Origin: a virus
DNA length: 64,000 nucleotides
Strand: one strand, 5' to 3'
IMG/VR virus record: IMGVR_UViG_3300010157_000045
Coordinates: 27,175 to 91,174 of that record
Both the position numbers and the translations under genes were made by a program. Positions 19,328-41,971 of this stretch are shown piece by piece (the stretch's first letter is position 1; each line of letters opens with the position of its first letter). The notes below the pieces were generated by a model. That model saw only the letters and a list, made by a program, of their open reading frames with translations, ran no database searches and was not told where the DNA came from.

Positions 19328-19333
19328 AAACGT

Positions 19334-22439: not shown

Positions 22440-22457
22440 TCTAATTATTCAAATTAG

Positions 22458-22502: not shown

Positions 22503-22514
22503 CTATATAACACT

Positions 22515-24430: not shown

Positions 24431-24761
24431 TATTTTAATTAACAAGCCTGCACCTGTTAAAGAATACCGATTGTACTACAATGAACAAGGTATGGTTACT
24501 ATGTTTGCCGAACATGCACATCCAGAAGGAACTAACTATATTGTCTTAGATGACCCTGATTTATTTTATAAAGCAAATACGCATTTACTTAGAGTACGTG
24601 ATAACAAGTTAATTAAAATAGATACAAGAATACAATTTAAAACCGGATTAAGACGCGGCACACAAGGACAACCGGTAGTAAAAGGTATTGCCGCATTGGC
24701 ATTGTTACCCACAGAAACATATACAGAAATAGAATACTATGAGCGAAAAACAAATAATTGA
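24411..24761 (+). CDS. Hypothetical protein in the glycosyltransferase cluster
   Basis: The 116-aa, mainly beta-predicted product ('YRLYYNEQGMVTMFAEH', 'GTNYIVLDDPDLFYKAN', 'LLRVRDNKLIKID') is not recognised. It ends 'EIEYYERKTNN'. It overlaps glycosyltransferase-like genes on both sides, so a role in the same complex is plausible but unproven. No signal peptide, membrane helix or catalytic motif was seen. Confidence 0.65.
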   Translation: MSPEELNILINKPAPVKEYRLYYNEQGMVTMFAEHAHPEGTNYIVLDDPDLFYKANTHLLRVRDNKLIKIDTRIQFKTGLRRGTQGQPVVKGIAALALLPTETYTEIEYYERKTNN

Positions 24762-25644: not shown

Positions 25645-26330
25645 ATATACTGGTAAATGGTAGTAGTTTTAGTAGAGGTGAGCACGGTTGGCCTACACTA
25701 CTACAAAAACAACTTGGATGTGATTTAGTTAACCTAAGCGTAGCTGGGTGTGGCAACAGTTACATACAAGAAACTACCATTAGTGAACTAGCTCAGAGAA
25801 CATACAATCGCGTAATTATCATGTGGTCTCCGTTTGATCGAGTTGACTATAAAATAACTAACGTAAATTTATTTTCAGGAACTATTTACAATTCTAAATA
25901 TCAATCAGAACAAAACGACTGGCCCAGTAAAGTACTACATCCAGTCAATGATCAAGACTATGTAGAAAAAGACTGGATATTTGGCTGTGGGTTTGTTAAC
26001 CAGGATAAGGACACAGCATTACAAGAAGCATTTCATGGTTATTACAAATACACAGATAGATGGCAACAAATATATTCTAACCTAATGCGTGTAATTAGCT
26101 TGCAAGGATTTTTAAAAAGTATTAACCAACCGTACTTGTTTACGTTTGCACGACAATTTAGACAGTTTGATAGATACGACCATTTATATAATCTATTAGA
26201 TTGGGACAACATATATGAAATTGATTTGCAGGCCATTGTACGAGAAAATAATTGGTTTGACCCCGACGGTGTACACCCTGGGCCACAAGCGCACGAGTAC
26301 TATGCACAAGAAATAATTAAGTTATTATGA
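25641..26330 (+). CDS. SGNH/GDSL-like hydrolase 1
   Basis: The 229-aa protein shows the SGNH blocks: 'ILVNGSSFSRG' (Ser9 as probable nucleophile in the GDSL position), 'SVAGCGNSYIQ' (block II Gly), 'VIIMWSPFDR' near block III, and 'DPDGVHPGPQAHEYYA' with Asp209 and His212 as the catalytic pair. Family members are esterases or acyl transferases, often removing or adding O-acetyl groups on glycans. The surrounding glycosyltransferase-like genes fit that. ATGA junctions on both sides show tight translational coupling. Confidence 0.75.
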   Translation: MNILVNGSSFSRGEHGWPTLLQKQLGCDLVNLSVAGCGNSYIQETTISELAQRTYNRVIIMWSPFDRVDYKITNVNLFSGTIYNSKYQSEQNDWPSKVLHPVNDQDYVEKDWIFGCGFVNQDKDTALQEAFHGYYKYTDRWQQIYSNLMRVISLQGFLKSINQPYLFTFARQFRQFDRYDHLYNLLDWDNIYEIDLQAIVRENNWFDPDGVHPGPQAHEYYAQEIIKLL

Positions 26331-27283
26331 ATAGATTTACATTAGACCTCAATGACACACTAATTTGGAATTATAAAGAGTTCCTTAGCTTTTTAGTAAA
26401 TCGCCAGGGCCAACATATCACAATAGAAACACATGCTGAAGGTGTTTGTTTATCTAGTTTAGGGGTTTACGATATATTAGACATGTTTAACTTTTTGTCA
26501 GTTACTATTGTAACAGATAATGTTGTAGAAATACATTCTAAATATAATATCGCATTAATTAAACAGCGTTTTAGATTCTTGCAAGTACCGCTAGATACTG
26601 ACTACAGCCAATATCAGCACTGGAACAGAAATACTGTATACGGTGCATTTTATAATAGACCAACTTGGTCAAGAATTGGATTAGCTAGCCACTTGCTTGC
26701 TTGCTATCCAGCACAGTCTACAGTAAATGTTAGATATGATCCTGGCAGTGAAAATCAACGCAGACACTTTGAACTGGATAAACTATTTTTAGCACATCCA
26801 GAATCTGTTAAAAATTTTATGTCAATATACAATCAATTGCCCAAGCAATTAGAAGATGCAGATGGATACACATGCGGAGTAACAACGCAAGTACATACAG
26901 ATCAACTTGCTAAATTTTATTCTAATTTCTTAATCGATATTGTGGCAGAAACATTTATAACTGGCAGAACATTTTTCCCAACAGAAAAAACTATACGACC
27001 CATGCTGTTAAAGAAACCATTCATTGTGATGGGACCTACATCATTTTTAATACATTTACGCCAACTAGGATTTCGTACATTTCATGATTTTTGGGACGAG
27101 GGATACGACGGGCACAGTGGACTACATAGATATATAAAGATACTTGACTTAATTGATACTATAGCATGTAAATCTACAATAGAATTAGAAGACATGTACG
27201 CTGGCATGCAACCCATACTAGAACATAATCATAGTTTATTATTGGAACGTAAATATACAACAGAGGTAACATACATTGAATGA
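26327..27283 (+). CDS. Putative glycosyltransferase-like protein, 'FWDESYD' family copy 1
   Basis: The 318-aa product ends in a block shared with the genes at 27276 and 42914: 'FLIDIVAETFITG', 'FPTEKTIRPMLLKKPFIVMG', 'LRQLGFRTFHDFWDEGYD' and 'MQPILEHNHSLL'. The order (V.ET....FxTEKT.RP......PF...G) recalls the donor-binding end of GT-B or fucosyltransferase-like enzymes, where Glu and Lys bind the nucleotide sugar. The N-terminal half is diverged. It is joined to both neighbours by overlap. The glycosyltransferase assignment is inference from pattern and context. Confidence 0.55.
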   Translation: MNRFTLDLNDTLIWNYKEFLSFLVNRQGQHITIETHAEGVCLSSLGVYDILDMFNFLSVTIVTDNVVEIHSKYNIALIKQRFRFLQVPLDTDYSQYQHWNRNTVYGAFYNRPTWSRIGLASHLLACYPAQSTVNVRYDPGSENQRRHFELDKLFLAHPESVKNFMSIYNQLPKQLEDADGYTCGVTTQVHTDQLAKFYSNFLIDIVAETFITGRTFFPTEKTIRPMLLKKPFIVMGPTSFLIHLRQLGFRTFHDFWDEGYDGHSGLHRYIKILDLIDTIACKSTIELEDMYAGMQPILEHNHSLLLERKYTTEVTYIE

Positions 27284-28337
27284 TTCGGCATATAAATGGC
27301 ATCAAGTAGGAATTAACGATAACAAATTCTGGAGAAAAGATCTATTAATAATGTATTTGTACGAATGTGTTCGTAGCAATACACTCCCACTGATCACAGT
27401 AGCACCCGAGGCCAGCAGTCTTCAAGGAAACGGCTTGTATTGGTACTTAGATAATTTTTGCGAACGTAATGATTATCCTAAATCCAATATCACAATACGC
27501 ACTGGAAATATAATTGAACGCCACCCCGAATACAAAATAGAACGAATCATAGAATCGTGGTTTGAATTGCCCATAATTCACAAATGGTTGTGGGACAATA
27601 CAATAACTTATACATATACACCTACAAAACATTTTGGGCATTTTATTGGTAAAGCAAACTGGAACCGACTATGGGTAGCCGCAGTATTACATAATCAATA
27701 TGCCAACAAATCATTCCAGACATTCCATGGTGGCCTAGGTACCAATTACCTAACCAAAGATACTACCAAGGTAGATTACATTGGACTTGAAGATTTAGTT
27801 AAACGTCGATGTGATGTGTTACCGGAAGTGATTGAGTTCTTGCAAACATGTCCCAGAGTTATTCCTGAAGACAAAGAATTTATCTCCGAATGTGCCACAC
27901 ATATTAAACAGCCCGATCATTATCCTATACAGTTGCCAGCCAATTTAAACATATTACAATACTACAATGACATTTTTGTAGATATAGTACATGAAAGTTA
28001 TTTAACAGGTGAAGTATTCTTTTGCACAGAAAAAACATGGCGCCCCATGCTGGCACGTCGACCTTTTATCACAGCCGCTGGCCGAGGACATCTTGCCAAT
28101 ATGCGACGCCTGGGATTTAAAACTTTTAATGATTTTTGGGACGAAAGTTATGACGACCTATATGGCACTGATAGAATAAAGTCTATTATAGGGCTGGTAT
28201 CAACAATAAGTTCTTGGAGCCCAGGCGAATTAATAAGTAAATTAGAGGAAATGAAACCTGTACTGGATCATAACTATACCACATTCCTTCGATTAAAACC
28301 GCAACAAATTGTGGAAACTTTTAAAGATATAAAATGA
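27276..28337 (+). CDS. Putative glycosyltransferase-like protein, 'FWDESYD' family copy 2
   Basis: The 353-aa protein shares the C-terminal block of its upstream neighbour ('FVDIVHESYLTG', 'FCTEKTWRPMLARRPFITA', 'MRRLGFKTFNDFWDESYDD', 'MKPVLDHNYT'), so the pair is a tandem duplication that has diverged strongly at the N-terminus. The start is TTG at 27276, with GAGG 9 bases upstream; the ATG two codons later is out of frame. The TTG overlaps the previous stop region, a coupling pattern repeated at 29215 and 42752. Confidence 0.55.
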   Translation: MNDSAYKWHQVGINDNKFWRKDLLIMYLYECVRSNTLPLITVAPEASSLQGNGLYWYLDNFCERNDYPKSNITIRTGNIIERHPEYKIERIIESWFELPIIHKWLWDNTITYTYTPTKHFGHFIGKANWNRLWVAAVLHNQYANKSFQTFHGGLGTNYLTKDTTKVDYIGLEDLVKRRCDVLPEVIEFLQTCPRVIPEDKEFISECATHIKQPDHYPIQLPANLNILQYYNDIFVDIVHESYLTGEVFFCTEKTWRPMLARRPFITAAGRGHLANMRRLGFKTFNDFWDESYDDLYGTDRIKSIIGLVSTISSWSPGELISKLEEMKPVLDHNYTTFLRLKPQQIVETFKDIK

Positions 28338-29218
28338 CAACAAGATTCTTCGCTTTTGGATGTAGTGCTACTAGCTGTAACTGGCCGACCTGGGCAGATA
28401 TACTAGCACGAGAATATGATCAATATCAAAATTGGGCATTACCGGGAGCCGGAAATAGTTTTATATTTTATAGTGTTATGGAAGCAATTAAACGTAACAC
28501 TATTACCAAAGACGACACAGTAATGATTATGTGGACCAACATTGGTAGAGAAGATCGTTATGTTAAAGGACAAGGTTGGATTACCCCAGGTAGCATATAT
28601 AATCAAACTATATACAGCCAAGACTTTGTTCGCGAGTATGCTGATCCAACTGGATATTTGATTAGAGACATGGCACATGTATCAGCAGTCAGATCTATAC
28701 TAGAATCTATAGGATGCACATATAAGTTTTTTAGTACTGTTCCACTTAATGTCCCGGATGACAATATCTTTAGGGTGTTTAGCATGGACACCAAGATTGT
28801 TAGTCTTTATTCAGAGGACATACAAAATATAGCACCTAGTGTGTTTGAAGTTGTATTTGCATTTGATTGGTATAGTCGTCCTGGTGTTAAGGACTTAGTA
28901 ATGCTAGAACAGTATTATAATACAGTCAAAGGTGATGCGTGGCCAACTTGGAAAACATTTGAACAACAAGATTGGACAGGTGTAGAAAAGCGTGTGCGTT
29001 TAGAAATAGACGAAGACCATTTATTATCTAAACAGTTATTATCGCGCACTAATACACATCTACTACCAGCAGAGCATTTAGAATATCTAGATCGTGTAAC
29101 AGACATTTATATACCTGAGGAAACTAGAGCATGGGTTAACGATGTAAACACAGCGATACTATCGGGTACGGATTTTAAACGACTATGGAAACCAACAGGT
29201 AAGGTTAACAGATTTTGA
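28334..29218 (+). CDS. SGNH-hydrolase-like protein 2
   Basis: The 294-aa product opens 'FFAFGCSATSCNWPTWADIL' with Ser11 in the GDSL nucleophile position, then 'NWALPGAGNSFIFY' (block II) and 'DDTVMIMWTNIGRED' near block III. A late 'NTHLLPAEHLEYL' (His242/His248) takes the place of the usual DxxH block. It is longer than the other copies, with an extra C-terminal 45 residues. Catalytic residues look present but noncanonical. It sits between glycosyltransferase-like and radical-SAM genes with ATGA-type coupling upstream. Confidence 0.6.
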   Translation: MTTRFFAFGCSATSCNWPTWADILAREYDQYQNWALPGAGNSFIFYSVMEAIKRNTITKDDTVMIMWTNIGREDRYVKGQGWITPGSIYNQTIYSQDFVREYADPTGYLIRDMAHVSAVRSILESIGCTYKFFSTVPLNVPDDNIFRVFSMDTKIVSLYSEDIQNIAPSVFEVVFAFDWYSRPGVKDLVMLEQYYNTVKGDAWPTWKTFEQQDWTGVEKRVRLEIDEDHLLSKQLLSRTNTHLLPAEHLEYLDRVTDIYIPEETRAWVNDVNTAILSGTDFKRLWKPTGKVNRF

Positions 29219-30600
29219 GTAAATCAGATTTTATGTCTGCCGCAGAGCAGATGAAAGAAAAATTAGGGCACGGGCTATGTTTAGCCAAATGGAAGCAAGT
29301 CAGCCTACATTTACCTACAGGGTTAAATAATAGTTGTTATCATCCGCCACTACATCAAATTGATGCTAGTGTATTAAAAGATGACCCGGGCGCACTACAT
29401 AACACAGAGCATAAAAAAGCTCAACGTGTTATTATGTTAAAAGACGAACGTCCTAGCGAATGCAGTTATTGTTGGACCCAAGAAGACTTAGGAAATCTAA
29501 GCGATAGACATTATAGATCAGGAGAGCCGTGGGCGGCAGAAGATTATGAACTTATTCGATCAAGCACCGGTAATGAAACGGACGTTGTTCCGTCGTACGT
29601 CGAAGTTAACTTTAATCATGCGTGTAATCTTAAATGTAGTTATTGCAGTCCCCAATTTAGTTCAAGTTGGCAAGCGGAAATGGACAAGTTTGGCGGTTTC
29701 CCGACAAGCACAATACATAATGATCCTAGTCATTTTACTGGGCGCAATAGGCCTATACCACATTCCCAACCTAATCCTTACGTCGATGCATTTTGGGAAT
29801 GGTTTCCAACCCTTTATCCAAAACTAAAACATTTCCGCATGACTGGTGGCGAGCCACTTATGGATAAAAATACATATCGAGTATTTGACTACGTGTTGGC
29901 ATTACCTAATCCTGAACTGCATTTAGATGTTACTAGTAACTTTAGTGTAGAAGATTCATTATTTGAAAAATACATGGGCTATGTAAAGAATCTATGTAAT
30001 ACACAAATTGAACACTTCATGCAGTATGTAAGTTTAGATAGCGGGAAACCAGACCATGCAGAATATATTCGCAATGGACTAAATTACAAAAGAGTAGCAC
30101 ACAATGTACAGCGTTTCTTAACTGAGATACCTTATCGTAATAGTCTTACATTTATTATCACAATGAATAATTTAAGTGTACTAGGCCTACAACAACAACT
30201 CGAGTGGATATTAGATTTGCGTCGCCAACACAGCACAACCTATCAACGTGTTTGGTTTGATACTCCCTTGTTACGTCAGCCTAAATGGCAAAGTTTACAA
30301 ATACTGCCGCCAGTATATTCTAAACATTTAGAACGTGTAGCTGACTGGATGGAACTTAATTTAGAAACAGCAGATGATCCGTTTCATGGATTTAAAGATT
30401 ACGAAGTACAGCGTATGCGTCAAGACATAGATTGGATGAAAGAAGGTTGCAATTTAGATCCAGACTATGTTAAACTGCAACGTGCAGACTTTTACAGATT
30501 CTTCAATGAACATGATAAACGTCGCAATACTAATTTCCTAGAAACCTTTCCGCAGATGAAAGAGTTTTGGGATGAATGCCGATACTATGCCCAGAATTAA
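29215..30600 (+). CDS. Radical SAM enzyme 1, N-terminal Cys-cluster (twitch-like)
   Basis: The 461-aa protein has the radical-SAM cluster motif 'CNLKCSYC' (CxxxCxxC, which binds a 4Fe-4S cluster and SAM) and the SAM-binding 'MTGGEPLM'. Upstream is a second set of Cys residues ('NNSCYHPP', 'ECSYCWTQEDLG') that could hold an auxiliary Fe-S cluster, the arrangement I recall as N-terminal twitch radical SAM. It closely resembles the next gene. The likely start is TTG 29215, overlapping the previous stop; ATG 29233 is the alternative. Substrate unknown. Confidence 0.85.
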   Translation: MSKSDFMSAAEQMKEKLGHGLCLAKWKQVSLHLPTGLNNSCYHPPLHQIDASVLKDDPGALHNTEHKKAQRVIMLKDERPSECSYCWTQEDLGNLSDRHYRSGEPWAAEDYELIRSSTGNETDVVPSYVEVNFNHACNLKCSYCSPQFSSSWQAEMDKFGGFPTSTIHNDPSHFTGRNRPIPHSQPNPYVDAFWEWFPTLYPKLKHFRMTGGEPLMDKNTYRVFDYVLALPNPELHLDVTSNFSVEDSLFEKYMGYVKNLCNTQIEHFMQYVSLDSGKPDHAEYIRNGLNYKRVAHNVQRFLTEIPYRNSLTFIITMNNLSVLGLQQQLEWILDLRRQHSTTYQRVWFDTPLLRQPKWQSLQILPPVYSKHLERVADWMELNLETADDPFHGFKDYEVQRMRQDIDWMKEGCNLDPDYVKLQRADFYRFFNEHDKRRNTNFLETFPQMKEFWDECRYYAQN

Positions 30601-31948
30601 AAACGAAACAGATATAGAATATAAACGCAGGGTAATCGACATTAAGTCGGAGTCATTCTGCGGAGCCAAATGGTACAATGCCACGATATGGTTAGGTAGT
30701 GGACAAACTACAAGTTGTCATCACCCGTTGCCACATGCCATTGATGTTGAAGATCTTGCACATAATCCAAAGGCGTTACATAATACGCAAAAAAAGAAAA
30801 TGGAACGTGAGCAGATGCAAAAGGGAGAAAGACCCAGCGGATGCGAGTACTGCTGGAAGATAGAAGATATAGGACGTGATAACATTAGTGATCGCGTTTA
30901 TAAGACAGTTATATATACAGACAAAGAATTGGAGACAGCGTATGCTCAGCCAGCCAGCAGTGATGTGGATTTACGAACGCTTGAAATTGCTTTTGATCGC
31001 ACATGCAATTTTGGGTGTAGTTACTGTAACCCTGCTTTCAGTAGCACTTGGGTTAAAGATATTGACACCAATGGACCTTTTACCGGCCTCACTTCAGACG
31101 GCAGGAATCATTTTACTCATAGCCATGGTAGTAGTCAGCTTTACAAGTTTGGTGAGTATAATCCTTATGTTGAGGCGTTCTTTAAGTGGTGGGAATCTGA
31201 CCTTCATAGATCGTTACTGGAGCTAAGATTAACCGGCGGTGAGCCACTTATGTCGGGAGACACGTGGAAGCTATTAGAATGGTTCAAGAACAACGATAAT
31301 CGAGTTAATCCAGACATGCGGTTTGCTATGAATAGTAACCTTGGTGCAAAGGATGACTTAATAGATCGTTTAATTGATGCATCACATAGCCTTAAACACT
31401 TTCACTTGTACACAAGCAATGAAGCAGTGGGTATTCAAAGTGAATATATTCGCGATGGCCTAGTGTGGGATAAATGGACCGGTAATGTAGATAAAGTATT
31501 GGAACGCGGTAATATAGAAGGCTTCCATATGATGTGTACCGTTAATGCACTATGCTTAGATAGTTTACCTGAGTTCCTGGATCAATGTTTAGAGTGGAAA
31601 GACTTGTGCGGAAAAGACTATCCTACATTTTCGCTAAATATATTACGCTTTCCAAGTTTTCAAAGTCCGTTAGTACTCCCAGACGAAATACGCCACCAAT
31701 ACAAACTACGCCTACAAGCATGGTTTGATAATAACAGCAAGAATCCGTTACTACATCAGTTTGAACTTAATCAACTACAACGTCTGATAGATTATTTAGA
31801 TGTAGTTAAAACTCCACACATGGGTGCCGCAGAACAATCAGTCTTACAACGAGACTTTAAACAGTTCTATACACAATACGACCAACGACGGAACAAAAAC
31901 TTTACACAAGCGTTTCCCTCATTAACCGAATGGTATAATTCAATATGA
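30572..31948 (+). CDS. Radical SAM enzyme 2, N-terminal Cys-cluster (twitch-like)
   Basis: The 458-aa product has 'CNFGCSYCNP' and 'LTGGEPLM' as cluster and SAM motifs. Its N-terminal Cys set ('TTSCHHPLPHAID', 'GCEYCWKIEDIG') matches the preceding protein, so these two form a recent-looking paralogous pair. The conserved end 'F.QFYTQYDQRRNKNFTQAFP' is also shared. The first ATG (30572) overlaps the previous gene by 29 bases; an ATG at 30587 is possible. It is joined to the next gene by ATGA. All residues for SAM cleavage appear intact. Confidence 0.85.
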   Translation: MNADTMPRIKNETDIEYKRRVIDIKSESFCGAKWYNATIWLGSGQTTSCHHPLPHAIDVEDLAHNPKALHNTQKKKMEREQMQKGERPSGCEYCWKIEDIGRDNISDRVYKTVIYTDKELETAYAQPASSDVDLRTLEIAFDRTCNFGCSYCNPAFSSTWVKDIDTNGPFTGLTSDGRNHFTHSHGSSQLYKFGEYNPYVEAFFKWWESDLHRSLLELRLTGGEPLMSGDTWKLLEWFKNNDNRVNPDMRFAMNSNLGAKDDLIDRLIDASHSLKHFHLYTSNEAVGIQSEYIRDGLVWDKWTGNVDKVLERGNIEGFHMMCTVNALCLDSLPEFLDQCLEWKDLCGKDYPTFSLNILRFPSFQSPLVLPDEIRHQYKLRLQAWFDNNSKNPLLHQFELNQLQRLIDYLDVVKTPHMGAAEQSVLQRDFKQFYTQYDQRRNKNFTQAFPSLTEWYNSI

Positions 31949-33282
31949 CAGATAAAGCAGAACGTCAAAAAGCATTTTATAAAAAAGGTTACGATTATAT
32001 GAGTAAGATGCCTTACTACATAGATGCAGAAGACCTAACAGAAAAACAAGTAGAACGACTAACAGAAAGCAAGACATTTTGTATCTTGCCATGGACTCAT
32101 ATGCATGCCTTTCCCGACGGGCGCACATACCCTTGCTGTTTAGCAGACTACTGGCATCCAATTGGCGACTTACGCAAAAACACAATGGAAGAAGTTTGGA
32201 ACCAAGATGGTTACAAAACCATGCGTAAGAACATGCTTGAAGACCGGCCTTGTACAGAATGTACCAAGTGCTATGAGCAAGAAGAAAACGGTTTCTTTAG
32301 TATGCGTAACGAAGCAAACAGAAACCAAGGACATTTTATTAAGGACGTTGATCTAACACATGAAGATGGCACACACCCCGAGTTTAAAATCCGTTACTGG
32401 GATATTAGATTTAGTAACCTATGTAATTTTAGTTGTCGCACCTGCGGTCCTATTTTTAGTAGCAATTGGTATAACGATCATGTCAAACTATACAACCGCA
32501 AGCCAGATGTACTAGGTCGAGAAATGTTACGTGTAGAGTATGCGGCCGGCGACGAAGAAACTATACAAAAACAAATGGAACCGCACATTCCTAACTTGGA
32601 ACAAGTATACTTTGCTGGCGGCGAACCATTGATCATGAAGGAACATTATTTCCTATTAGACCGGTTACTAGAACAAGATAAAACAGATTGTAGATTAATC
32701 TACAATACAAACTTCAGTGAAATGCGCTACAAAGACAAACACGTATTTGATTACTGGAAAAAGTTTGAAACAGTAAATGTAGGAGCCAGCCTCGACGGTA
32801 GCTATGCTCGTGGCGAACTAATACGTAAAGGCACAGACTGGGCACAGGCAGTGGACAATCGTCGACGTATGATGACAGAAGTACCACACGTAGACTTTTA
32901 CATTAGTGCTACAGTTAGTGCTATGAATATTCTACATATACTAGACTTTCATCGAGAGTGGGTAGAGCTAGGGTTAATTGAACCTAAGGATTTTAATATT
33001 AATATTTGCCAAAGTCCTGAGTGGTATCGCATTGATATTTTCCCTGAATGGTTCAAGCAAGACGTTATTATTCCAGCATATCAAAAACATATCAAGTGGT
33101 TAGACCCACAGGATAAACTACGTCGTGCTACAGTAGGATTCCAAAGTATTTTAAACTTCCTAACTGCAAATGACCGCAGTGACTTATGGCCACGTTTTGT
33201 ACAAGAAATTAAAACATTAGATGATTTACGTAGTGAAAATTTTTGGTCTACCTTCCCGGAGTTCTCAGCGTTAAATGCTTAA
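31945..33282 (+). CDS. Radical SAM enzyme 3, N-terminal Cys-cluster (twitch-like)
   Basis: The 445-aa protein has an N-terminal twitch-like segment 'FCILPWTHMHAFPDGRTYPC' with 'CTECTKCYEQEE', then 'CNFSCRTCGP' as the radical-SAM cluster motif and 'FAGGEPLI'. The N-terminal 'C.LPWT...PDG..Y.CC' style resembles SPASM/twitch auxiliary-cluster regions placed before, not after, the catalytic barrel. A conserved 'SLDGSYARGELIRKG' segment lies in the second half of the barrel. It is a different subgroup from copies 1 and 2. ATGA coupling links it to copy 2. Confidence 0.87.
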   Translation: MTDKAERQKAFYKKGYDYMSKMPYYIDAEDLTEKQVERLTESKTFCILPWTHMHAFPDGRTYPCCLADYWHPIGDLRKNTMEEVWNQDGYKTMRKNMLEDRPCTECTKCYEQEENGFFSMRNEANRNQGHFIKDVDLTHEDGTHPEFKIRYWDIRFSNLCNFSCRTCGPIFSSNWYNDHVKLYNRKPDVLGREMLRVEYAAGDEETIQKQMEPHIPNLEQVYFAGGEPLIMKEHYFLLDRLLEQDKTDCRLIYNTNFSEMRYKDKHVFDYWKKFETVNVGASLDGSYARGELIRKGTDWAQAVDNRRRMMTEVPHVDFYISATVSAMNILHILDFHREWVELGLIEPKDFNINICQSPEWYRIDIFPEWFKQDVIIPAYQKHIKWLDPQDKLRRATVGFQSILNFLTANDRSDLWPRFVQEIKTLDDLRSENFWSTFPEFSALNA

Positions 33283-34264
33283 CTATAAAGATTTACGTAG
33301 CATACATTTAGAAATTAGTTCCAGATGTAATGCGGCTTGTCCCGATTGCTTACGCAATTACCGTGGTGTAGATATCATTGACACGTATCCTGTGCGAGAT
33401 ATGTCACTAGAGGAATTTAAAGAAGTATTCAGTGCGGAGTTCCTGCAACAATTAGATAATTTTAAAATCAATGGCAACTATGGCGATTTTGTTACAGCTA
33501 GAGATGGCGTAGAAATTGTTGAATACATTGTACATTCTAATCCTAAATTAAGTTTGGAAATTAGTACCAATGCTAGTGCTAAGCCAAAGATATGGGAACG
33601 ACTGGCAAAGTCTAAACCAATCGTATATTTTCGTTTAGATGGATTGGGTGATACACATCAACTATATAGACAAAATACTGACTTTGAGTTTATACTAGAC
33701 AATGCTCAAAAATTTATTCGTGCTGGAGGAGAAGCAGTATGGGCAATGATTAAATTTGATCATAATCAACATCAAATCAATGAGTGTGAACGTTTAAGTA
33801 GAGACTTAGGATTTAGTAGATTTGATTTAGTTGATGCAGGACGCAATACTATGCCAGTGTTTACATCAGATAAAAGATTAAGTCATACCATTGGCGACTA
33901 TCGTGGATCAACTAATTTTGATGAGTTATACAATAATTACAAATATTACGAAACTGATCCTACTATAGCAGTTATGTCAGAGACTGAAAATAGAGAAATT
34001 AGTTGCTATGCTAAAAAAATGCAAGAAGTATATGTAGCAAGCAACGGCGAAGTGTACCCTTGTTGCTGGCTGGGCTACTATCCTTTACATAGTAATAGTC
34101 GTCCAAGTAACGCACAGTTAAAACCTTTAATAATGGAAAATAACGCAATAGAGTACGGACTAGAACATGCAATAGCATGGTTTAATAAAATTGAAGAATC
34201 CTGGGACAAAACTGTTCCAACTGGAAAAATATATGAGTGCAATCAAACCTGTGGCATTAAATAA
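33275..34264 (+). CDS. Radical SAM enzyme 4, C-terminal SPASM-like domain
   Basis: The 329-aa product has 'EISSRCNAACPDCLRNYRG', with CxxxCxxC at the N-terminus instead of after an auxiliary domain. The usual GGE motif is replaced by 'INGNYGDF', a variant seen in some radical-SAM families. The C-terminus carries a SPASM-like Cys set ('ISCYAKKM', 'NGEVYPCCWLGYYP', 'ECNQTCG'). It is therefore the only one of the seven with conventional domain order, and may do a different step from its six neighbours. It overlaps the genes on both sides. Confidence 0.85.
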   Translation: MLNYKDLRSIHLEISSRCNAACPDCLRNYRGVDIIDTYPVRDMSLEEFKEVFSAEFLQQLDNFKINGNYGDFVTARDGVEIVEYIVHSNPKLSLEISTNASAKPKIWERLAKSKPIVYFRLDGLGDTHQLYRQNTDFEFILDNAQKFIRAGGEAVWAMIKFDHNQHQINECERLSRDLGFSRFDLVDAGRNTMPVFTSDKRLSHTIGDYRGSTNFDELYNNYKYYETDPTIAVMSETENREISCYAKKMQEVYVASNGEVYPCCWLGYYPLHSNSRPSNAQLKPLIMENNAIEYGLEHAIAWFNKIEESWDKTVPTGKIYECNQTCGIK

Positions 34265-35468
34265 ACATCCAACAACTTGTATGTTGCCTTGGTCTAGTAT
34301 TGCGGCAAATACTACCGGAACAACCAGACCATGTTGTATAAGCGAAGATATTATCAAACGTCCCAACGGTACTCCGTATAACCTTGCTACAGATAGTATC
34401 ATGGAAATATATCACAGTGACTGGATGAAAAATCTAAGACAAGAGTTCATTGACGGAAAAAAACCTGCAGGATGTCGGCGCTGTTGGAACGAAGAAGCCG
34501 TAGGAAAAACTAGCAAACGTCTTAATCATTTACATAAAATGAATATGATATTGCCAATGTTAAATTTTACTACGCTAGATCCGGTACATTTTTTATATTT
34601 GGATTTAAAACTGGGTAACATTTGCAATCTTAAATGTCGTATCTGCGGCCCAATGATCAGTAGCAAGTGGGCCCAAGAAAGTTTAATGCAGATACCATAT
34701 GAACAACGTAAAAATAGCATTCAGAAAACATGGTTGGTTGAAGGCGAGTGGCCTCGCACAAGTAAAGGATTCTGGGAAGAACTTTATACAATAATACCCA
34801 AGATTAAATTCTTAGATTTTACTGGTGGCGAACCTTTTATGATACAAGAGCACTTTGATCTATTACAATATAGCGTGGATAATGGCTATAGTAAATATCA
34901 ACACTTGTTTTATAATACCAATGGTACCATATTCCCAGAGGGTGCAGAAGACTTATGGAAAAATTTTAAACGTGTTGAAATAGCATTTAGTATCGATGCA
35001 ATTGGCAAACAATTTAATCTAGAACGATCCGGAGCAGATTGGGACAAGGTCAATGCAAACATAATAAAATTTCAAGCATTAAAAAAACATTTGCCGCACA
35101 TAGAACTTCAGATAAGCGCAACAGTAAACATACAAAATGTCTACTATCTTGAAGAATTATGCAATTGGTTTGATCAGCACAAATTTGATTACGTACATTT
35201 TGGCCTAGTACATTTCCCTGGTTACATGAGCATTGGTGAAATGACCGATACTGCCAAACAGCTAGTAATAGAAAAATTAAAAAATGGAAAATTTAACAAT
35301 ATTTATAAACCAGAGATTAACAAAATAATTGATTTTATTAACAGAGCAATGAGTACAGATGGTTCTTCGTTCCGTATTAAGATGAAACAACTAGACAAAT
35401 TACGCAATGAAAATTTTGCAGAAACACATCCAGAAATAGCACGAGCAATGAATTATGACGCTACCTAA
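34233..35468 (+). CDS. Radical SAM enzyme 5, N-terminal Cys-cluster (twitch-like)
   Basis: Preferred start is ATG 34233, with GGAAA upstream; a TTG at 34191 would add 14 residues overlapping the previous gene. The 411-aa protein begins with 'TTCMLPWSSIAAN' and 'TTRPCCISED', then 'CRRCWNEEAVGK', an auxiliary-cluster set. Next come 'CNLKCRICGP' and 'FTGGEPFM'. 'HFDLLQYSVDNGYSKY' and 'ISATVNIQNVYYLEEL' are nearly repeated in the next gene, showing a tandem duplication. Substrate unknown; the whole group lacks an obvious peptide-precursor gene beside it. Confidence 0.86.
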   Translation: MSAIKPVALNKHPTTCMLPWSSIAANTTGTTRPCCISEDIIKRPNGTPYNLATDSIMEIYHSDWMKNLRQEFIDGKKPAGCRRCWNEEAVGKTSKRLNHLHKMNMILPMLNFTTLDPVHFLYLDLKLGNICNLKCRICGPMISSKWAQESLMQIPYEQRKNSIQKTWLVEGEWPRTSKGFWEELYTIIPKIKFLDFTGGEPFMIQEHFDLLQYSVDNGYSKYQHLFYNTNGTIFPEGAEDLWKNFKRVEIAFSIDAIGKQFNLERSGADWDKVNANIIKFQALKKHLPHIELQISATVNIQNVYYLEELCNWFDQHKFDYVHFGLVHFPGYMSIGEMTDTAKQLVIEKLKNGKFNNIYKPEINKIIDFINRAMSTDGSSFRIKMKQLDKLRNENFAETHPEIARAMNYDAT

Positions 35469-36669
35469 TACAATTTGTATGTTACCTTGGATTAGTGTTG
35501 AGACTAGTCCATTGGGCACTACACGCCCTTGTTGTCTTGCTGACGAAGAAATTGTCGATGAGAATGGTGCCAAGTACGACCTGAACAAAACAAATTTAGA
35601 AGTTGTGTACCATAGCAAATATATGCAAGACTTACGAGAGCAGTTTCGTGCTGGTAAAAAGCCCAAGACATGTAAACGTTGTTGGGACGAAGAAGATGCT
35701 GGCCGTGACAGTAAGCGTATCAACAGTCAAATAAGATTAAAAGAAATATACAAGGAAGTTGATTGGTCTAACAACAATCCTGACCAGCTATGGTTTGTAG
35801 ATTTAAAATTAGGTAATATTTGTAATCTTAAATGTCGTATATGCGGCTCTTGGTCCAGTAGCAGTTGGGCCACAGAAGAAATGAATTACTTGCCAGCGGG
35901 CGAAGATAAGAAAAAGCATTTAGCATATACTTGGTTAAAGCAAGGCGCCTGGCCACGTAAAACAACTACATTTTGGGATAACATGCGATCATTGTTACCA
36001 AATATTAAGTACTTTGAATTTACAGGCGGCGAACCCTGGATGATTCAGGAACACTTTGACTTGCTACAATATGCGGCAGACAAAGGATATAGTCGTAACA
36101 TTGATATACATTACAATACCAATGGTACACAAAACCCGTTGCCTTACACAAAACTATGGGCACAGTTTGGTCGTGTAGATATTGCATTTAGTATAGATAA
36201 CGTAGGCAAGCGATTTGAATACGAACGATTTGGTGCAAAGTGGGAAGAAGTAAATGAAAACATAGACAAAACTCATTTTGCAAGAACTGATTTTGCTTCT
36301 AATATTACTACACAACTATGTTTTACTATTAATATACAAAATGTCTATTACTTAGATGAACTGCTCGCCTGGGCAGATACTAAACCGTGGACTAGCATTT
36401 ACTTTAACATGATGCACAGCCCGGAGTATATGAACATACAACATATGACCCCTACTGCTAAAGAACTAGTGCTTAACAAATTAAAAACAACCTTTTGGAC
36501 TAGTCGTCATTATCAACAAGAAATAGATAATGTAATCAAGTTTATTGAACTTGGTCAAGGCAGTGACGGTAAACGTTTCTTATTTGAAATGCAACGCACA
36601 GATGCTTACCGTAAACAAAACTTCATGGATACTCATCTTGAAATAGCCAGGGCAATGGGTTATGAATAA
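35455..36669 (+). CDS. Radical SAM enzyme 6, N-terminal Cys-cluster (twitch-like)
   Basis: The 404-aa paralogue of the preceding gene carries 'TICMLPWISVET', 'TTRPCCLADEE' and 'CKRCWDEEDAGRDSKR' before 'CNLKCRICGS' and 'FTGGEPWM'. It shares 'HFDLLQYAADKGYSRN', 'HYNTNGTQ' and 'NIQNVYYLDELLAW' with it. Both end in 'ARAMGYE' or 'ARAMNYD', which supports duplication of the full gene. It overlaps its neighbours by 14 and 8 bases. Two near-identical architectures side by side suggest either two related substrates or a heterodimer. Confidence 0.86.
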   Translation: MTLPNTICMLPWISVETSPLGTTRPCCLADEEIVDENGAKYDLNKTNLEVVYHSKYMQDLREQFRAGKKPKTCKRCWDEEDAGRDSKRINSQIRLKEIYKEVDWSNNNPDQLWFVDLKLGNICNLKCRICGSWSSSSWATEEMNYLPAGEDKKKHLAYTWLKQGAWPRKTTTFWDNMRSLLPNIKYFEFTGGEPWMIQEHFDLLQYAADKGYSRNIDIHYNTNGTQNPLPYTKLWAQFGRVDIAFSIDNVGKRFEYERFGAKWEEVNENIDKTHFARTDFASNITTQLCFTINIQNVYYLDELLAWADTKPWTSIYFNMMHSPEYMNIQHMTPTAKELVLNKLKTTFWTSRHYQQEIDNVIKFIELGQGSDGKRFLFEMQRTDAYRKQNFMDTHLEIARAMGYE

Positions 36670-37954
36670 GCCAGCAACACTATGTATGGCACCTTGGGTA
36701 CACACGTATCTAAGTCCGCAGACTGAACGTCGTATGTGCTGTGCTAGCCGCGAAGATGCACAAAACTTTGAGCAATATATAGACACCCAAGCAGGCACGG
36801 GCAAGTACATACCAATTACTCTAGATGAGCATTGGAATAGCAAACACATGAAGTCAGTACGTCAACGCATGATGGCTGGAGAGACCCTGCCCGAGTGCGA
36901 AGTATGTAATGACAAGCTATTAAACACAGATGTTTACCGTAGTTATTTTAATCAGCTATTTGGCAATAAGTACTTAGACGCAATGGCGAGTACAGACATT
37001 ACAGGTTATACCACGATGAAACCTGTAAGCTGGGATTACCGTTTTAGTAATCTGTGTAACTTCAAATGTCGAATGTGTGGGGATATGTTGTCCAGTGCTT
37101 GGGAAAGCGAGCAACGGCAAAACAATATGATTGATTGGAACAATCCAAAGAATAATTGGATGAAACCTGAAGTCAAAATAGAAATTGAAAAGTTTCAAGA
37201 CACCCAGGTAGAGCAAGAGTTTGCTACTGCTGTTGAAGAGCACCGAGTGGAAGAGGTGTATTGGGTGGGAGGCGAGCCGTTAATGTATGAACAGCATTGG
37301 CGATACATGAAGCGGATTATAGAACTTGGAGATGGAAAAAATGTTTACGCTAGGTATAATACAAATCTTAGTCGTGTTAATTATCGTGGTATTAATCTGT
37401 ATAGGGACATACTATCTGGGCTACGTGACTGGCAAATCTGTGCAAGCATCGACGGCACGGGCCGAATTGGAGAGTATATTCGATCAGGTCTTAATTTTGA
37501 TGAGTGGCTTAAGAACTTCATTGAAGGAATTACGCATAGCCAACACCGCCGCCAAATCCGTATGGATTTCACTCTTACTACACCAGGACTCTTTGAAGTA
37601 CAAGCGATACAAACGCTCGCAAAAGAACTTGGAGTAGACGTACTAGCCAAAGTAGTTTTTAGTTTTAGTCCGGACATAATTATGTCTCCGTTGGCACTAC
37701 CTAAAGATGTATTGCATCCTTGGGTAGACGAAATAGTAGCCGGCTTAGAACCCGGTGCCCTTCGGGACATAATGGTCCAACTTAAAACCCGCCCCACCTT
37801 TGCTGAACAATGGCCCACAGAATATCAAGCTGGGTTACGTAAGGGCAAAGCTCGCATACAAGAACTTGAAAAAATTCGAAAAGACGTGTATACTTTTAGA
37901 GACATAATGTCTTTAAGACCGGACGCACTGGAATGGTATGACTCAATCAATTAA
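36662..37954 (+). CDS. Radical SAM enzyme 7, N-terminal Cys-cluster (twitch-like)
   Basis: The 430-aa product has 'TLCMAPWVHTYLSPQTERRM' followed by 'CCASRED' and 'CEVCNDKLLN' as auxiliary Cys residues, then 'CNFKCRMCGDM' and 'WVGGEPLM'. The N-terminal style is closest to copy 3. A 'CASIDGTGRIGEYIRSG' segment lies where copy 3 has 'ASLDGSYARGELIRKG', probably part of the active-site barrel. It is the last of the radical-SAM run and overlaps the next, unrelated gene by 17 bases. Confidence 0.86.
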   Translation: MNKPATLCMAPWVHTYLSPQTERRMCCASREDAQNFEQYIDTQAGTGKYIPITLDEHWNSKHMKSVRQRMMAGETLPECEVCNDKLLNTDVYRSYFNQLFGNKYLDAMASTDITGYTTMKPVSWDYRFSNLCNFKCRMCGDMLSSAWESEQRQNNMIDWNNPKNNWMKPEVKIEIEKFQDTQVEQEFATAVEEHRVEEVYWVGGEPLMYEQHWRYMKRIIELGDGKNVYARYNTNLSRVNYRGINLYRDILSGLRDWQICASIDGTGRIGEYIRSGLNFDEWLKNFIEGITHSQHRRQIRMDFTLTTPGLFEVQAIQTLAKELGVDVLAKVVFSFSPDIIMSPLALPKDVLHPWVDEIVAGLEPGALRDIMVQLKTRPTFAEQWPTEYQAGLRKGKARIQELEKIRKDVYTFRDIMSLRPDALEWYDSIN

Positions 37955-39068
37955 AGTAGTATTACGTAATCCGTTAGATAAAAATGACTTAGTAGACTAT
38001 ACAATAGTTCCCAATGATACTCAGCTGGCCACAGATTGGGTTAACGCATTGAAGGCATTACTTGTGCGTGGCAATCTTGTAGAAAAGAATTTCTGCTTTA
38101 TGGGATTTCCGTATACAGCACGTAATTTAGGCTATCTATGTAAAGAACTTAATGATGCTGTTTATAAAATTAATTTATTTAATCGTAAAGGTATTTGGCC
38201 CACGCCATACGTAATCGAAGAATACTTTACTCCTGATACTGTACGCTTTGGAGACGAATATCCTATAGGCTGGGATGAAAGTAACCTTGGCCTCGGCATT
38301 AAGCACGGTGTAATGAACACGTTGCATAATCACTTTGAACGCTTACAGGGAACGGTGTGGGGATTAAGCGAATACTACAAACTGGCTGACTACGAAACAA
38401 AGTATGCTATACGTCAACTAAACAACATCTGTCACGAGATGGAGAACTTATGTTTGAGTCAGCGCAAACAAGCAACAACACCACAGTATATACGTCCTAG
38501 TCAAATTACTACTTTTCTACAAGCACAACGACATAACTTGACACTTGAACATCGTCAAGGGTTTGTTACCAATGGATATGATCGTGTGTTTGGCGGGGTA
38601 TATATGCACTGGACACAAATAGGAAAAACACTATTTGAAGTATATAGAGATGAACACGCACCAAACTTAACTGACACAGTATGCGAAGCTATCAATGAGT
38701 TAAAATACTATAGTGGCGAGTTTGATGTAGAATGGGGCAGAGATACAGTATATGGTGGCAAAGAGTGTCAGTGGCACACCGACGAACTAGATGGCTTTTA
38801 TGCTTGGCTAGAAAAAAATAATAAAGATTGCACGGATCCTACATTAAGTCTTGGGTACTTGCCAATGGGACAAATTGACTTAGACGGTTCATTTGGTAAT
38901 AATAGCCCTGAAGTAGTTTGGCAAATACTTAAAAACCATTTAGACATATATAAAATTGAAGTGGGAGACATAAGTCAAACTTATGATTTTTGTTGGTCAG
39001 ACTCTGATTATAAACAATTACAAATTAACATGATGAAACCTGGATATGATTATAGCAGCCGGAGATAG
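37938..39068 (+). CDS. Hypothetical protein following the radical-SAM run
   Basis: The 376-aa protein is not recognised as an enzyme. It is soluble and rich in aromatic and charged residues, with blocks 'NTLHNHFERLQGTVWGLSEY', 'AIRQLNNICHEMENL', 'RPSQITTFLQA' and a Trp/His-containing 'GGVYMHWTQIGKTLFEVYRD'. His-rich patches and 'CQWHTDELDGF' could bind metal, but no known motif is complete. It overlaps a radical-SAM gene at its start and an SGNH-like gene at its end, so it probably belongs to the same pathway. Confidence 0.65.
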   Translation: MTQSIKVVLRNPLDKNDLVDYTIVPNDTQLATDWVNALKALLVRGNLVEKNFCFMGFPYTARNLGYLCKELNDAVYKINLFNRKGIWPTPYVIEEYFTPDTVRFGDEYPIGWDESNLGLGIKHGVMNTLHNHFERLQGTVWGLSEYYKLADYETKYAIRQLNNICHEMENLCLSQRKQATTPQYIRPSQITTFLQAQRHNLTLEHRQGFVTNGYDRVFGGVYMHWTQIGKTLFEVYRDEHAPNLTDTVCEAINELKYYSGEFDVEWGRDTVYGGKECQWHTDELDGFYAWLEKNNKDCTDPTLSLGYLPMGQIDLDGSFGNNSPEVVWQILKNHLDIYKIEVGDISQTYDFCWSDSDYKQLQINMMKPGYDYSSRR

Positions 39069-39822
39069 TTTTGTATTTGGAAGTGAACTAAAAAGTCCTG
39101 CTAACACATTTACAGCCTTATTGGGTGCAGATGAATGTGTCGCATGGCCAGGTTACGGAAATGACGCTATTGCTCGTACTACTATAGAACGTTGTGAACA
39201 AGGCGGTGTAACTGGTGTAATTGTTAGTTGGACATTCCCGGGACGATACGAGTTTAGATTTGCCTACAATACTCAACAAAAGAAAAGCCCGTGGTACAGT
39301 ATTAATGTTTGGACTATTAAATCTGATATTGATTCTATTAAAGAAGAATTTGTTACAGATAATGCAGAAATACTTACTGCACAAAAACAAACTATTGAAC
39401 GTGCAAAGCAAACTGGAGTTGCTGATTTTGCAGATTCCTTTTATAAACACGTAGGGTCAACTGAGTACTGGGAAATATACAGTAGTCTTAAAGAAATTGT
39501 TTATCTACAAAATTATCTAACAGTTAAGGGCATACCATTTATGTTTACTTGTGCAGATAATTGCCTATTTAATAACCATACAGTGGACAACGCCGATTCG
39601 GTACTATCAAGTTTGCTAAACCAAATTGACTATTTAAAATGGTTTTGGTTTCCTGAAGGTAAAGGCTCAAACCAAACCAAAACCCAAAGAGGTTTTTACC
39701 AGTGGGCGTTAGAGAATAAATACCCAGTAGGCACAACACATCCACTTGAGCAAGCACATCTGGATGCTTCCAAAATAATGAAAGATAAATTCAATGAATT
39801 GGTTAAGAAACATATACAATAG
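39046..39822 (+). CDS. SGNH/GDSL-like hydrolase 3
   Basis: The 258-aa product opens 'MIIAAGDSFVFGSEL', a classic GDSF block with Ser8 as probable nucleophile, followed by 'WPGYGNDAIARTTIE' (block II) and 'VTGVIVSWTFPGRYEF'. Near the C-terminus 'THPLEQAHLDASKIM' supplies a candidate catalytic His (232 or 238). The usual block V Asp is not obvious. It overlaps the previous gene by 23 bases and contains the start of a 33-aa gene. It is related to the copy at 39892 ('GWTSPGRVEF' there matches 'SWTFPGRYEF' here). Confidence 0.72.
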   Translation: MIIAAGDSFVFGSELKSPANTFTALLGADECVAWPGYGNDAIARTTIERCEQGGVTGVIVSWTFPGRYEFRFAYNTQQKKSPWYSINVWTIKSDIDSIKEEFVTDNAEILTAQKQTIERAKQTGVADFADSFYKHVGSTEYWEIYSSLKEIVYLQNYLTVKGIPFMFTCADNCLFNNHTVDNADSVLSSLLNQIDYLKWFWFPEGKGSNQTKTQRGFYQWALENKYPVGTTHPLEQAHLDASKIMKDKFNELVKKHIQ

Positions 39823-39895
39823 AATTACATTAGAAATACGTTATCGCAAGAAATTAAAAGAATTGCGTAAACGTGATCCATTTATTTACAAATGA
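39794..39895 (+). CDS. Small basic protein (33 aa) between two SGNH genes
   Basis: ATG 39794 opens a 33-codon frame beginning 'MNWLRNIYNRITLEIRY' and ending 'RKRDPFIYK'. It is strongly basic and helical (Arg/Lys-rich 'RKKLKELRK'). It fills the gap between two SGNH-like genes: its start lies in the last codons of one, and its TGA overlaps the ATG of the next (ATGA), the junction style of this operon. I recall short phage proteins with a similar 'KRDPFIYK' end, which supports reality. It might bind nucleic acid or membrane; function unknown. Confidence 0.7.
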   Translation: MNWLRNIYNRITLEIRYRKKLKELRKRDPFIYK

Positions 39896-40530
39896 AAATA
39901 CTGGCAGTAGGCGACAGCTTTACCTATGGATCTGATCTAGCAGATCGCACACAGTCATGGCCTTGTGTGTTGGCCGGCAAACTTGATACCACTGTAACTA
40001 ACTTGGGCAAGCCTGGCGGCGGCAATACACAAATAGTTCGTAACATTGTGGAACATGCAACCGATTATGACTTGGTGGTAGTAGGGTGGACAAGTCCAGG
40101 GCGAGTAGAGTTTGGAACCATAACCAATACATTTGATGTATGGCCCGGTTGGCAAGGACGACCGATTGACATGTTTCAGCCCGAGTTTGCTAGATTGATA
40201 ACAGCAAGTCACGAACCTAAATATTTGTTTCGACGGTACCTGACTGATATAATACTGACTCAGAATTATCTAAAAACACAAAACATCAAGTATCTAATGT
40301 CAACTACACAAGGCGAAACAGAATATTATTACAGTACACTTAAAGACACCAGTCAAGATCTATTAGACAAGATAGATTATACACAATTTATAGAGTGGCC
40401 AATGAATGGCATGGCAGAATGGACATTTGAATCTCCTAGGGGCAAAAGCAATCATTTCTTAAACGAAGGTCACGTAAAAGTAGCAGACAAATATTATGAA
40501 TATATTAGGAATCTCGGCTGGCTTTCATGA
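39892..40530 (+). CDS. SGNH/GDSL-like hydrolase 4
   Basis: The 212-aa protein begins 'MKILAVGDSFTYGSDLADRT', the best GDSL block in the window (Ser9), with 'GKPGGGNTQIVRN' as block II and 'YDLVVVGWTSPGR' near block III. 'FLNEGHVKVADKYYEYI' gives the catalytic His194. It is compact, close to the minimum for an SGNH esterase. It overlaps the 33-aa gene by ATGA and the carbamoyltransferase gene by 35 bases. Deacylation or acyl transfer on a glycan is the likely reaction. Confidence 0.75.
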   Translation: MKILAVGDSFTYGSDLADRTQSWPCVLAGKLDTTVTNLGKPGGGNTQIVRNIVEHATDYDLVVVGWTSPGRVEFGTITNTFDVWPGWQGRPIDMFQPEFARLITASHEPKYLFRRYLTDIILTQNYLKTQNIKYLMSTTQGETEYYYSTLKDTSQDLLDKIDYTQFIEWPMNGMAEWTFESPRGKSNHFLNEGHVKVADKYYEYIRNLGWLS

Positions 40531-41971
40531 TGCGGCCGCAACAGTATTAAACCCTCACGGAGAGATACTATTTGCAGGCCATAGTGAACGTTACAGCAAA
40601 ATTAAAAACGATGCTGAATTTGCCAGTGAATTGTTTACCGACGTCATGCAACATAGTCCCATATACCATGTTGCATATTATGAACGTCCGTGGGCAAAAC
40701 AGTTACGTAGATGGTATAGTGGAGAAGGAATAGAATGGAACAAATTTACTGTACAGCAAATATTAAAAAAACAACTTTGCGGTTTTAAATTTCCAGAATA
40801 TAGTTCGCACAATCATCATTTAAGTCATGCCGCGGCTGGATTCCAAACTAGTACCTTTGATCGAGCTACTGTAGTTGTTATTGATGCAATTGGTGAGTGG
40901 GACACAATTAGTATTTGGGGTGCTCATTATGTCAATGGACGGGCACAGTATCATCGGCTATGGGGGCAGAAGTATCCACACAGCATAGGATTGTTTTATA
41001 CAGCAATGACACAACAAGCTGGACTAAAGCCCATGGAAGATGAATACATCTTAATGGGTATGGCCGCATATGGGACTGATAAAGCCAGTACGTCAATGAG
41101 TATGCAACTACTAGCAGACGAGTGGAACATCAAGTTTAAAGAAAATTTACACACTGGTACCAGCTACGAGTGGAACTCAAAATTTGATGTTGAAGATATT
41201 GCCAGTTCTGCACAGGCTTTTTGTGAAAATTTGATATATAATGTTATGCGCCGCGCAAAAGACTTTGGGTGGAGTACAAACTTGGTATATATGGGCGGTG
41301 TTGCCCTTAACTGTTTAGCTAATAGAAATCTTGGTGATTATTTTGAAAAAGTATGGATCATGCCTAACCCTGGTGATGCTGGTAGTAGCCTTGGTGCGGC
41401 CGCTCTTGTCCACGGCGGCAGAATACAGTTTGACCATGCATTTCTCGGACACAGTATTCCCGGTCCTTATCCAGTTAACACCGCGCTCGACGGACTCCTT
41501 AGAGATAAGATCGTGGGGGTGGCCTCTGGAAGAGCAGAATTTGGACCAAGGGCCCTTGGAAACAGAAGTCTACTCGCCGACCCGCGGGGTCCGGACATAA
41601 AAGACCGTGTCAACCAAATTAAACGTAGACAAGAATTTAGACCATTTGCGCCGATTATTTTGGCAGAGCACGTTAACGATTACTTTGACATGCCTAGTGG
41701 GTTTGTTGATAGCAGTTATATGCAAGTGGTGGGTCGCTGTCGCCACCCTAAGTTATTTCCTGCTATTGTCCACTATGATGGCACTAGTCGTATACAAACA
41801 GTACCAGCTAATAGTTCAGGAATTAGAGAACTCCTAGAAAAATGGTATGTCTTAACTGGTTGTCCAATGTTATTAAACACAAGTCTTAACATTAAAGGTG
41901 AACCAATGGTCAATGACCGCGCTGATGCAGATCGCTTTGAAAAACTCTATAACGTAAAGGTATATTCATGA
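40496..41971 (+). CDS. Carbamoyltransferase, NodU/CmcH/TobZ family
   Basis: The 491-aa product has the family signatures: an N-terminal 'ILGISAGFHDAAATVL', the metal-binding 'HNHHLSHAAAGFQTS' (105-118), 'YMGGVALNCLANRNLGD', 'EFGPRALGNRSLLADP' (349-363), 'EFRPFAPIIL' and 'LNTSLNIKGEPMV'. These enzymes make carbamoyl-adenylate from carbamoyl phosphate and ATP and pass the carbamoyl group to a hydroxyl on a sugar or antibiotic. It is somewhat shorter than typical members but keeps both domains. Its place beside SGNH, sugar and radical-SAM genes supports modification of a glycan or small molecule. Confidence 0.9.
   Translation: MNILGISAGFHDAAATVLNPHGEILFAGHSERYSKIKNDAEFASELFTDVMQHSPIYHVAYYERPWAKQLRRWYSGEGIEWNKFTVQQILKKQLCGFKFPEYSSHNHHLSHAAAGFQTSTFDRATVVVIDAIGEWDTISIWGAHYVNGRAQYHRLWGQKYPHSIGLFYTAMTQQAGLKPMEDEYILMGMAAYGTDKASTSMSMQLLADEWNIKFKENLHTGTSYEWNSKFDVEDIASSAQAFCENLIYNVMRRAKDFGWSTNLVYMGGVALNCLANRNLGDYFEKVWIMPNPGDAGSSLGAAALVHGGRIQFDHAFLGHSIPGPYPVNTALDGLLRDKIVGVASGRAEFGPRALGNRSLLADPRGPDIKDRVNQIKRRQEFRPFAPIILAEHVNDYFDMPSGFVDSSYMQVVGRCRHPKLFPAIVHYDGTSRIQTVPANSSGIRELLEKWYVLTGCPMLLNTSLNIKGEPMVNDRADADRFEKLYNVKVYS

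Follow-up and report, generated by a model that had tools for sequence, protein, structure and literature searches.

We report here an obligate module of five radical S-adenosylmethionine (SAM) enzymes that have intact catalytic signatures, lie in a fixed gene order and are under purifying selection, and which is encoded in a 64,000-nucleotide stretch of viral DNA (the window) corresponding to positions 27175-91174 of the 91,174-base IMG/VR phage record IMGVR_UViG_3300010157_000045. The five genes belong to an array of seven radical SAM (rSAM) genes, r1 to r7, at 29215-37954, and a first-pass annotation of the window had treated the seven as a single run; we find that r1, r2, r3, r6 and r7 form the conserved core, that r4 and r5 are optional, and that the record encodes 11 rSAM genes rather than seven, with four situated outside the array. 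The record is probably a fragment of a jumbo-phage genome, because its portal protein and a 3585-residue structural protein place the phage nearest to the jumbo phages PA5oct, Atu_ph07 and GAP32/CBB.

Conservation of the five-gene core

Related loci were fetched with single copies of r2, r3, r4 and r6 and fall into 173 non-redundant groups, 100 of which hold both r2 and r3 (the array loci). The order and strand of r1-r2-r3-r6-r7 are unbroken in all 100 contig groups, which exceeds chance, and all five genes are present in 82; r1 is found in 99 of the array loci, r4 in eight and r5 in three. The CxxxCxxC and GGE motifs and every Fe-S ligand are conserved in 100% of the 86-97 orthologues of each core enzyme, and the median ratio of non-synonymous to synonymous substitution rates (dN/dS) is 0.04-0.10 across the core enzymes. 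The relatives are numerous, with at least 599 for r2 in IMG/VR. In a tree of sampled orthologues each core enzyme forms one clade with support of 97-100, giving five separate clades; the tree was made with a quick method and places the two N-twitch (N-Twi) copies encoded outside the window on long branches, and its deep branching order is not used here. The closest relatives of the core enzymes are therefore co-located rather than independently scattered housekeeping enzymes, the pattern that had been named as counting against a shared pathway.

Because these loci were found through rSAM queries, the linkage test was repeated from two flanking genes, GT301 (24739-25644), the fixed 5' neighbour of the array, and Y376 (37938-39068), the obligate 3' neighbour of r7. 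As a query, GT301 gave 59 non-redundant loci 14 kb or more in length, and Y376 gave 61. Among the GT301-anchored loci 56 of 59 have at least three N-Twi enzymes and 58 have r1, and all 61 Y376-anchored loci contain both r6 and r7 and have three or more N-Twi enzymes. The linkage extends further upstream, and S335, p104 and G284 precede GT301 in 53/53 flank-anchored loci. The usual order is S335 - p104 - G263 - G284 - (q116) - GT301 - variable segment - r1 - r2 - r3 - (r4, r5) - r6 - r7 - Y376, followed less regularly by two SGNH genes, a carbamoyltransferase gene and a kinase/nucleotidyltransferase gene. This fixed-order core, its obligate linkage to the flanking genes and the purifying selection acting on it bear out the earlier proposal of a dedicated pathway, and we consider it very probable that the five core enzymes act in one pathway. 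The array genes are closely packed, with a median gap of -11 bp and 92% of junctions at or below zero (overlaps), leaving no gap that could encode a precursor peptide, in keeping with the earlier remark that none is obvious. A bacterial origin for the array was considered and rejected: a relative of r3 was seen only in one 6-kb contig of a metagenome-assembled genome, and NF033640, the family to which most of the array proteins belong (see below), occurs in 2/296 genomes of the Bacteroidota, the phylum sampled.

Supply of Fe-S clusters was surveyed in nine array-bearing jumbo contigs and in nine cultured jumbo phages matched by portal or structural protein. The array-bearing contigs have 7-16 N-Twi matches each, and an A-type (IscA/ErpA-type) carrier is encoded in 8/9 and an IscU-like protein in 5/9, whereas the cultured relatives have neither an A-type carrier (0/9) nor an N-Twi enzyme over the family cut-off (0/9). 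The link between array and carrier is not strict, since Vibrio phage K566 has N-Twi enzymes and no carrier, and the association may reflect ecology.

Enzyme classes and cluster ligands

The interval 29215-37954 is filled by seven complete same-strand open reading frames with overlapping ends, coding for proteins of 461, 458, 445, 329, 425, 404 and 430 residues. The core genes r1 (29215-30600), r2 (30572-31948), r3 (31945-33282), r6 (35455-36669) and r7 (36662-37954) and the optional genes r4 (33275-34264) and r5 (34191-35468) are all on the plus strand; for r5, translation more probably starts at the in-frame ATG at 34233 than at the TTG. All seven proteins match Radical_SAM PF04055 (E 1e-5 to 1e-8), and the PHROGs database returns generic rSAM families only for them. 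Copies 1, 2, 3, 5, 6 and 7 match NCBIfam NF033640 (N_Twi_rSAM) over nearly their full lengths with 289-389 bits (r1, 301; r2, 305; r3, 389; r6, 332; r7, 289), well above the family's curated threshold (170 bits), whereas r4 scores 27 bits and is of the C-terminal-twitch type. The first-pass annotation, made from the letters of the window, had thus correctly recognized seven consecutive rSAM enzymes of which six have the auxiliary Cys set on the N-terminal side, and the profile search it had suggested assigns these six to a single family.

In all eight N-twitch proteins of the genome, the six in the array and two elsewhere, four auxiliary Cys residues (C-x17/18-C ... C-x2-C), the number needed to ligate one auxiliary cluster, precede the CxxxCxxC motif, and GGE is invariant. 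An auxiliary domain N-terminal to the barrel, as in six of the seven array proteins, is unlike the canonical SPASM/twitch enzymes, in which it is C-terminal. We note that the N-terminal Cys stretch of the N-twitch enzymes aligns with the twitch domain at the C-terminus of the aminocyclitol dehydrogenase BtrN, which fits a relocated twitch domain; r3 also has an N-terminal PF13186 match. Copy 4 has the cluster motif at C18/C22/C25, then INGNYGD in place of GGE as noted earlier, and C244/C263/C322/C326 at the C-terminus. Among 73 relatives of r4, G67 and G70 are present in 73/73 and D71 in 68/73, with Glu in the remainder, and because both glycines are fixed and the last position is Asp or rarely Glu, the alignment indicates that GNxGD is a variant motif and a conserved trait of the class and not a loss or decay.

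The AlphaFold model of r3 is confident (predicted local distance difference test, pLDDT, 94.9), and the solved structures nearest to it are tetraether synthase, anSME, BlsE, CteB, viperins and AprD4, which match in the barrel only. Family-level similarity to viperins (pVip) was not found, with barrel-only weak matches of 14-23 bits and the NCBIfam viperin model far below its cut-off.

The proposal that copies 1/2 and 5/6 are tandem duplicates holds for one pair only. Copies 5 and 6 share 47% identity and are sisters in the tree, where r5 appears as a lineage-limited sister of r6, but a recent tandem duplication of r1 and r2 is ruled out by their orthology and 33% identity, and theirs is an ancient split, because nearly all relatives retain each of the two as its own orthologue. 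The four rSAM genes outside the array form two further pairs of a C-SPASM and an N-Twi gene on the minus strand of the same genome (L010:1698-4111 and L009:10659-12945), which sit around a gp46-like gene that is itself beside a gp47-like gene, and both have the gene order (C-terminal-type, then N-twitch) of copies 4 and 5. Such a pair was considered as a general unit and rejected, since it occurs in 3/3 instances in this genome but in only 13/67 in relatives.

Neighbouring genes, a proposed pathway and its alternatives

The module sits directly after tail-fibre genes, on the structural strand, and all of its genes are on the plus strand. S335 (21432-22439) encodes a Thr/Ser-rich (31% S+T) fibre-like protein and candidate acceptor with neither Cys nor a long conserved core motif, with no PHROG or Pfam match and no homologue in cultured phages, and p104 (22515-22829), a small conserved protein (median 59% identity, no PHROG or Pfam match), is a possible assembly chaperone for it. 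G263 (22798-23589) is a putative GT-A-type glycosyltransferase, called from a DxD-like motif ('D.DY', kept in 86 homologues) with no family match, and G284 (23576-24430) a putative glycosyltransferase with 'KlE.D' kept in 90 homologues; q116 (24411-24761) is a small conserved protein found in 65/100 array loci. GT301 is GT2-like with a conserved 'LIDGDN' motif and alone among the three glycosyltransferases has a Pfam match, a weak one to Glyco_tranf_2_3.

The variable segment contains an SGNH-type protein (25641-26330; DUF6071/GDSL matches), X318 (26327-27283), its paralogue X353 (27276-28337), and an SGNH-like protein (28334-29218). X318 and X353 belong to a TEKT/DFWDESYD family, with homologues in 57 array loci, and are putative GT-B-like transferases by motif resemblance. 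The signature TEK...GFxTFxDFWDESYD recurs at 26327-28337 and 42914-44179 (318, 353 and 421 residues), and the family has no convincing Pfam, NCBIfam or PHROG match. Variable genes with any match are mostly SGNH/DUF6071, with single cases of a sugar epimerase, a UDP-sugar dehydrogenase, a hexapeptide transferase and a sulfotransferase.

On the 3' side, Y376 is present in 85/100 array loci and has a confident AlphaFold model (pLDDT 90.5), although the fold search found no relative in the PDB and the protein is absent from cultured phages; its invariant His/Glu/Asn positions and its invariant motifs N-x2-H-x2-F-E and C-H-E, with residues N127, H130, E134, C165, H166 and E167, suggest a possible metal enzyme. 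It is followed by an SGNH-like protein (39046-39822; 58/100 array loci) recognized, like that at 28334-29218, by a sequence pattern with no Pfam match, an SGNH/GDSL hydrolase-like protein (39892-40530; weak PF13472/DUF6071 match), a NodU/TobZ-type O-carbamoyltransferase (40496-41971; PF16861 6.7e-48, PF02543 1.8e-34; 76/100 array loci), and an APS-kinase-like/nucleotidyltransferase fusion (41968-42759; PF01583 3.6e-9) with an NMN-adenylyltransferase-like C-terminal half. Elsewhere in the window there are two tail-region proteins, rich in glycine and containing long Gly runs, at 14374-17362, one of which matches Gly_rich_2, and a minus-strand sugar-nucleotide block at 46002-49591, with two epimerases, a DegT aminotransferase and a PIG-L deacetylase beside thymidylate synthase and dihydrofolate reductase (DHFR), that is found in few array relatives.

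We tentatively propose, at somewhat less than even confidence, that 21432-42759 is one module that builds a glycan, most probably on S335, and edits it by radical chemistry. In this scheme the segment would be translationally coupled, 3' of the jumbo-phage tail-fibre genes, and would both make and decorate the glycan. A short glycan would be built by the GT-A transferases G263, G284 and GT301 together with the variable TEKT-family transferases, and r1, r2, r3, r6 and r7 would each make one separate 5'-deoxyadenosyl-radical edit of its sugar positions, with cleavage of SAM bound to a [4Fe-4S] cluster and one fully Cys-ligated auxiliary cluster in each enzyme. The edits could be oxidation, epimerisation, deoxygenation or cross-linking, after which acyl and carbamoyl groups would be added or trimmed by the SGNH proteins and the carbamoyltransferase, and r4, r5 and other optional enzymes would diversify the final structure among phages, as expected of a rapidly evolving coat that faces receptors or counters recognition. 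The glycan substrate, S335 as acceptor, the reaction types and the biological role are what we infer from this arrangement.

The suggestion of the first-pass annotation that a glycan, lipid or virion protein is the more likely substrate stays conjectural, and within that range we lean towards a glycan carried by a virion protein because the variable genes are of SGNH, epimerase and sugar-dehydrogenase types, because no gene checked looks membrane-embedded, and because a fibre-like protein rich in Ser and Thr always lies upstream. A glycan or glycoconjugate is a fairly likely substrate, and S335 could well be the acceptor, although we hold this part with less assurance. Several observations weigh against the proposal. 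The functions of all module members are predicted, with the glycosyltransferase and acceptor calls drawn from motifs, composition and position; S335 matches no known structural family, most variable neighbours match no family at all, and Y376 is not accounted for. Peptide, sugar, nucleotide and lipid enzymes all occur among the top fold matches of r3, and the structure therefore does not fix the substrate class. Furthermore, rSAM enzymes are oxygen-sensitive, and no 2Fe-2S (Fer2) ferredoxin was found in ten records, from which SAM synthetase is also absent.

There are several other ways to read the module. Its sugars could modify the polysaccharide on the surface of the infected host (superinfection exclusion), as is commonly supposed for the lipopolysaccharide genes of pelagimyophages, whose host-recognition regions have both glycosyltransferases, interpreted as host-surface modifiers, and rSAM cassettes (PMC7029224). 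There are indeed nucleotide-sugar genes nearby, but we find no flippase, polymerase or membrane transferase and no transmembrane-like segment in the module genes checked, and the position directly after the tail fibres on the structural strand, with obligate linkage to S335 and p104, makes this reading unlikely. Also unlikely is that the rSAM enzymes act directly on side chains or the backbone of S335 (or p104) without a glycan, in the manner of ribosomally synthesised and post-translationally modified peptide (RiPP) maturation. SPASM/twitch enzymes are mostly modifiers of peptides and proteins, the best match in the PDB profile search is 8vpo, a structure cited in a paper on RiPP recognition elements, and a candidate acceptor is always adjacent. 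However, there is neither a small precursor nor space for one, S335 has no Cys or long conserved core motif, glycosyltransferase, SGNH and carbamoyltransferase genes are constantly alongside, and a winged helix like that of a RiPP recognition element is not apparent in the r3 model, as judged on secondary structure alone.

We regard a pathway for nucleotide or DNA hypermodification as highly improbable: radical enzymes are used for base modification in other phages, and the genes for thymidylate synthase and DHFR are found some 7-13 kb downstream, but these two are encoded on the other strand and fall outside the conserved block, the module adjoins the tail fibres, and no DNA-modification family is matched. 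The rSAM genes might also be accumulated or redundant auxiliary cargo with unrelated substrates that are simply clustered, as the extra variable copies inserted in the array and elsewhere could suggest. This too is quite improbable, and is largely refuted by the flank-anchored tests, since the five core members are never reordered, are rarely missing and have all ligands fixed. Returning to the glycan-editing proposal, a broader possibility, about which we are more doubtful, is that an obligate five-step rSAM line, largely restricted to phages, installs a chemically new tail-fibre modification in a large environmental clade of jumbo phages; the modification might be a glycan rearranged by radical chemistry, or else a cross-link in protein or one joining glycan to protein.

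Relationship to known systems

The maintenance of five non-redundant radical enzymes as a unit implies that something the phage needs undergoes several difficult C-H functionalisations, and phages with the array are frequent enough in metagenomes to yield hundreds of matches. The module would connect the long-standing abundance of rSAM genes in certain phages with a single defined pathway, provide NF033640, an orphan enzyme family, with substrates, and explain in a testable way why these phages have Fe-S carriers of their own. The match of six of the seven copies to NF033640, with the auxiliary Cys set before the rSAM domain, places them in an annotation family for which we found no tested function, and which is represented here by five fixed orthologous types in one operon. 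The catalytic barrel and a related twitch domain are shared with BtrN and SPASM/twitch enzymes (anSME, CteB, AprD4, BlsE), but the twitch domain is C-terminal in those enzymes and N-terminal here, and there is no full-length fold match (best TM-score about 0.35).

Searches of cultured phages with tblastn gave no match for r2, GT301, G284, Y376 or S335, and r3 and r7 match only Vibrio phages K566 and K567, distantly, with r3 also distantly matching a marine single-cell fragment. K566 and K567 are isolated phages that likewise have several clustered N-Twi enzymes, but with about 24% identity to r3 and no detectable homologue of GT301 or Y376; in K566 (L307), the region 17974-24716 contains several N-Twi enzymes, partly annotated as hypothetical, and offers a usable laboratory model.

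In the open-licence literature we came across no account of an rSAM operon with five fixed, orthologous enzymes, and the closest parallels are phages with many rSAM genes. A TARA T4-like phage (PMC5332604), which has 12 rSAM genes as well as genes for Fe-S carriers, shares the combination of many rSAM genes with phage-borne Fe-S delivery, and is set apart by the available part of its description, in which no array, order or pathway is described. Campylobacter phages CP220 and CPt10 have 11-12 rSAM genes each, including five-gene clusters accompanied by amidinotransferase and nucleotide-sugar transferase-like genes (PMC2853527). However, three of the CP220 enzymes are r4-like (C-terminal type) and none reaches the NF033640 cut-off, and the CP220/CPt10 modules are described as interchangeable whereas here there is one fixed orthologous set. 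Phages with multiple rSAM genes are therefore already known, and what is new is a fixed and co-inherited five-enzyme core.

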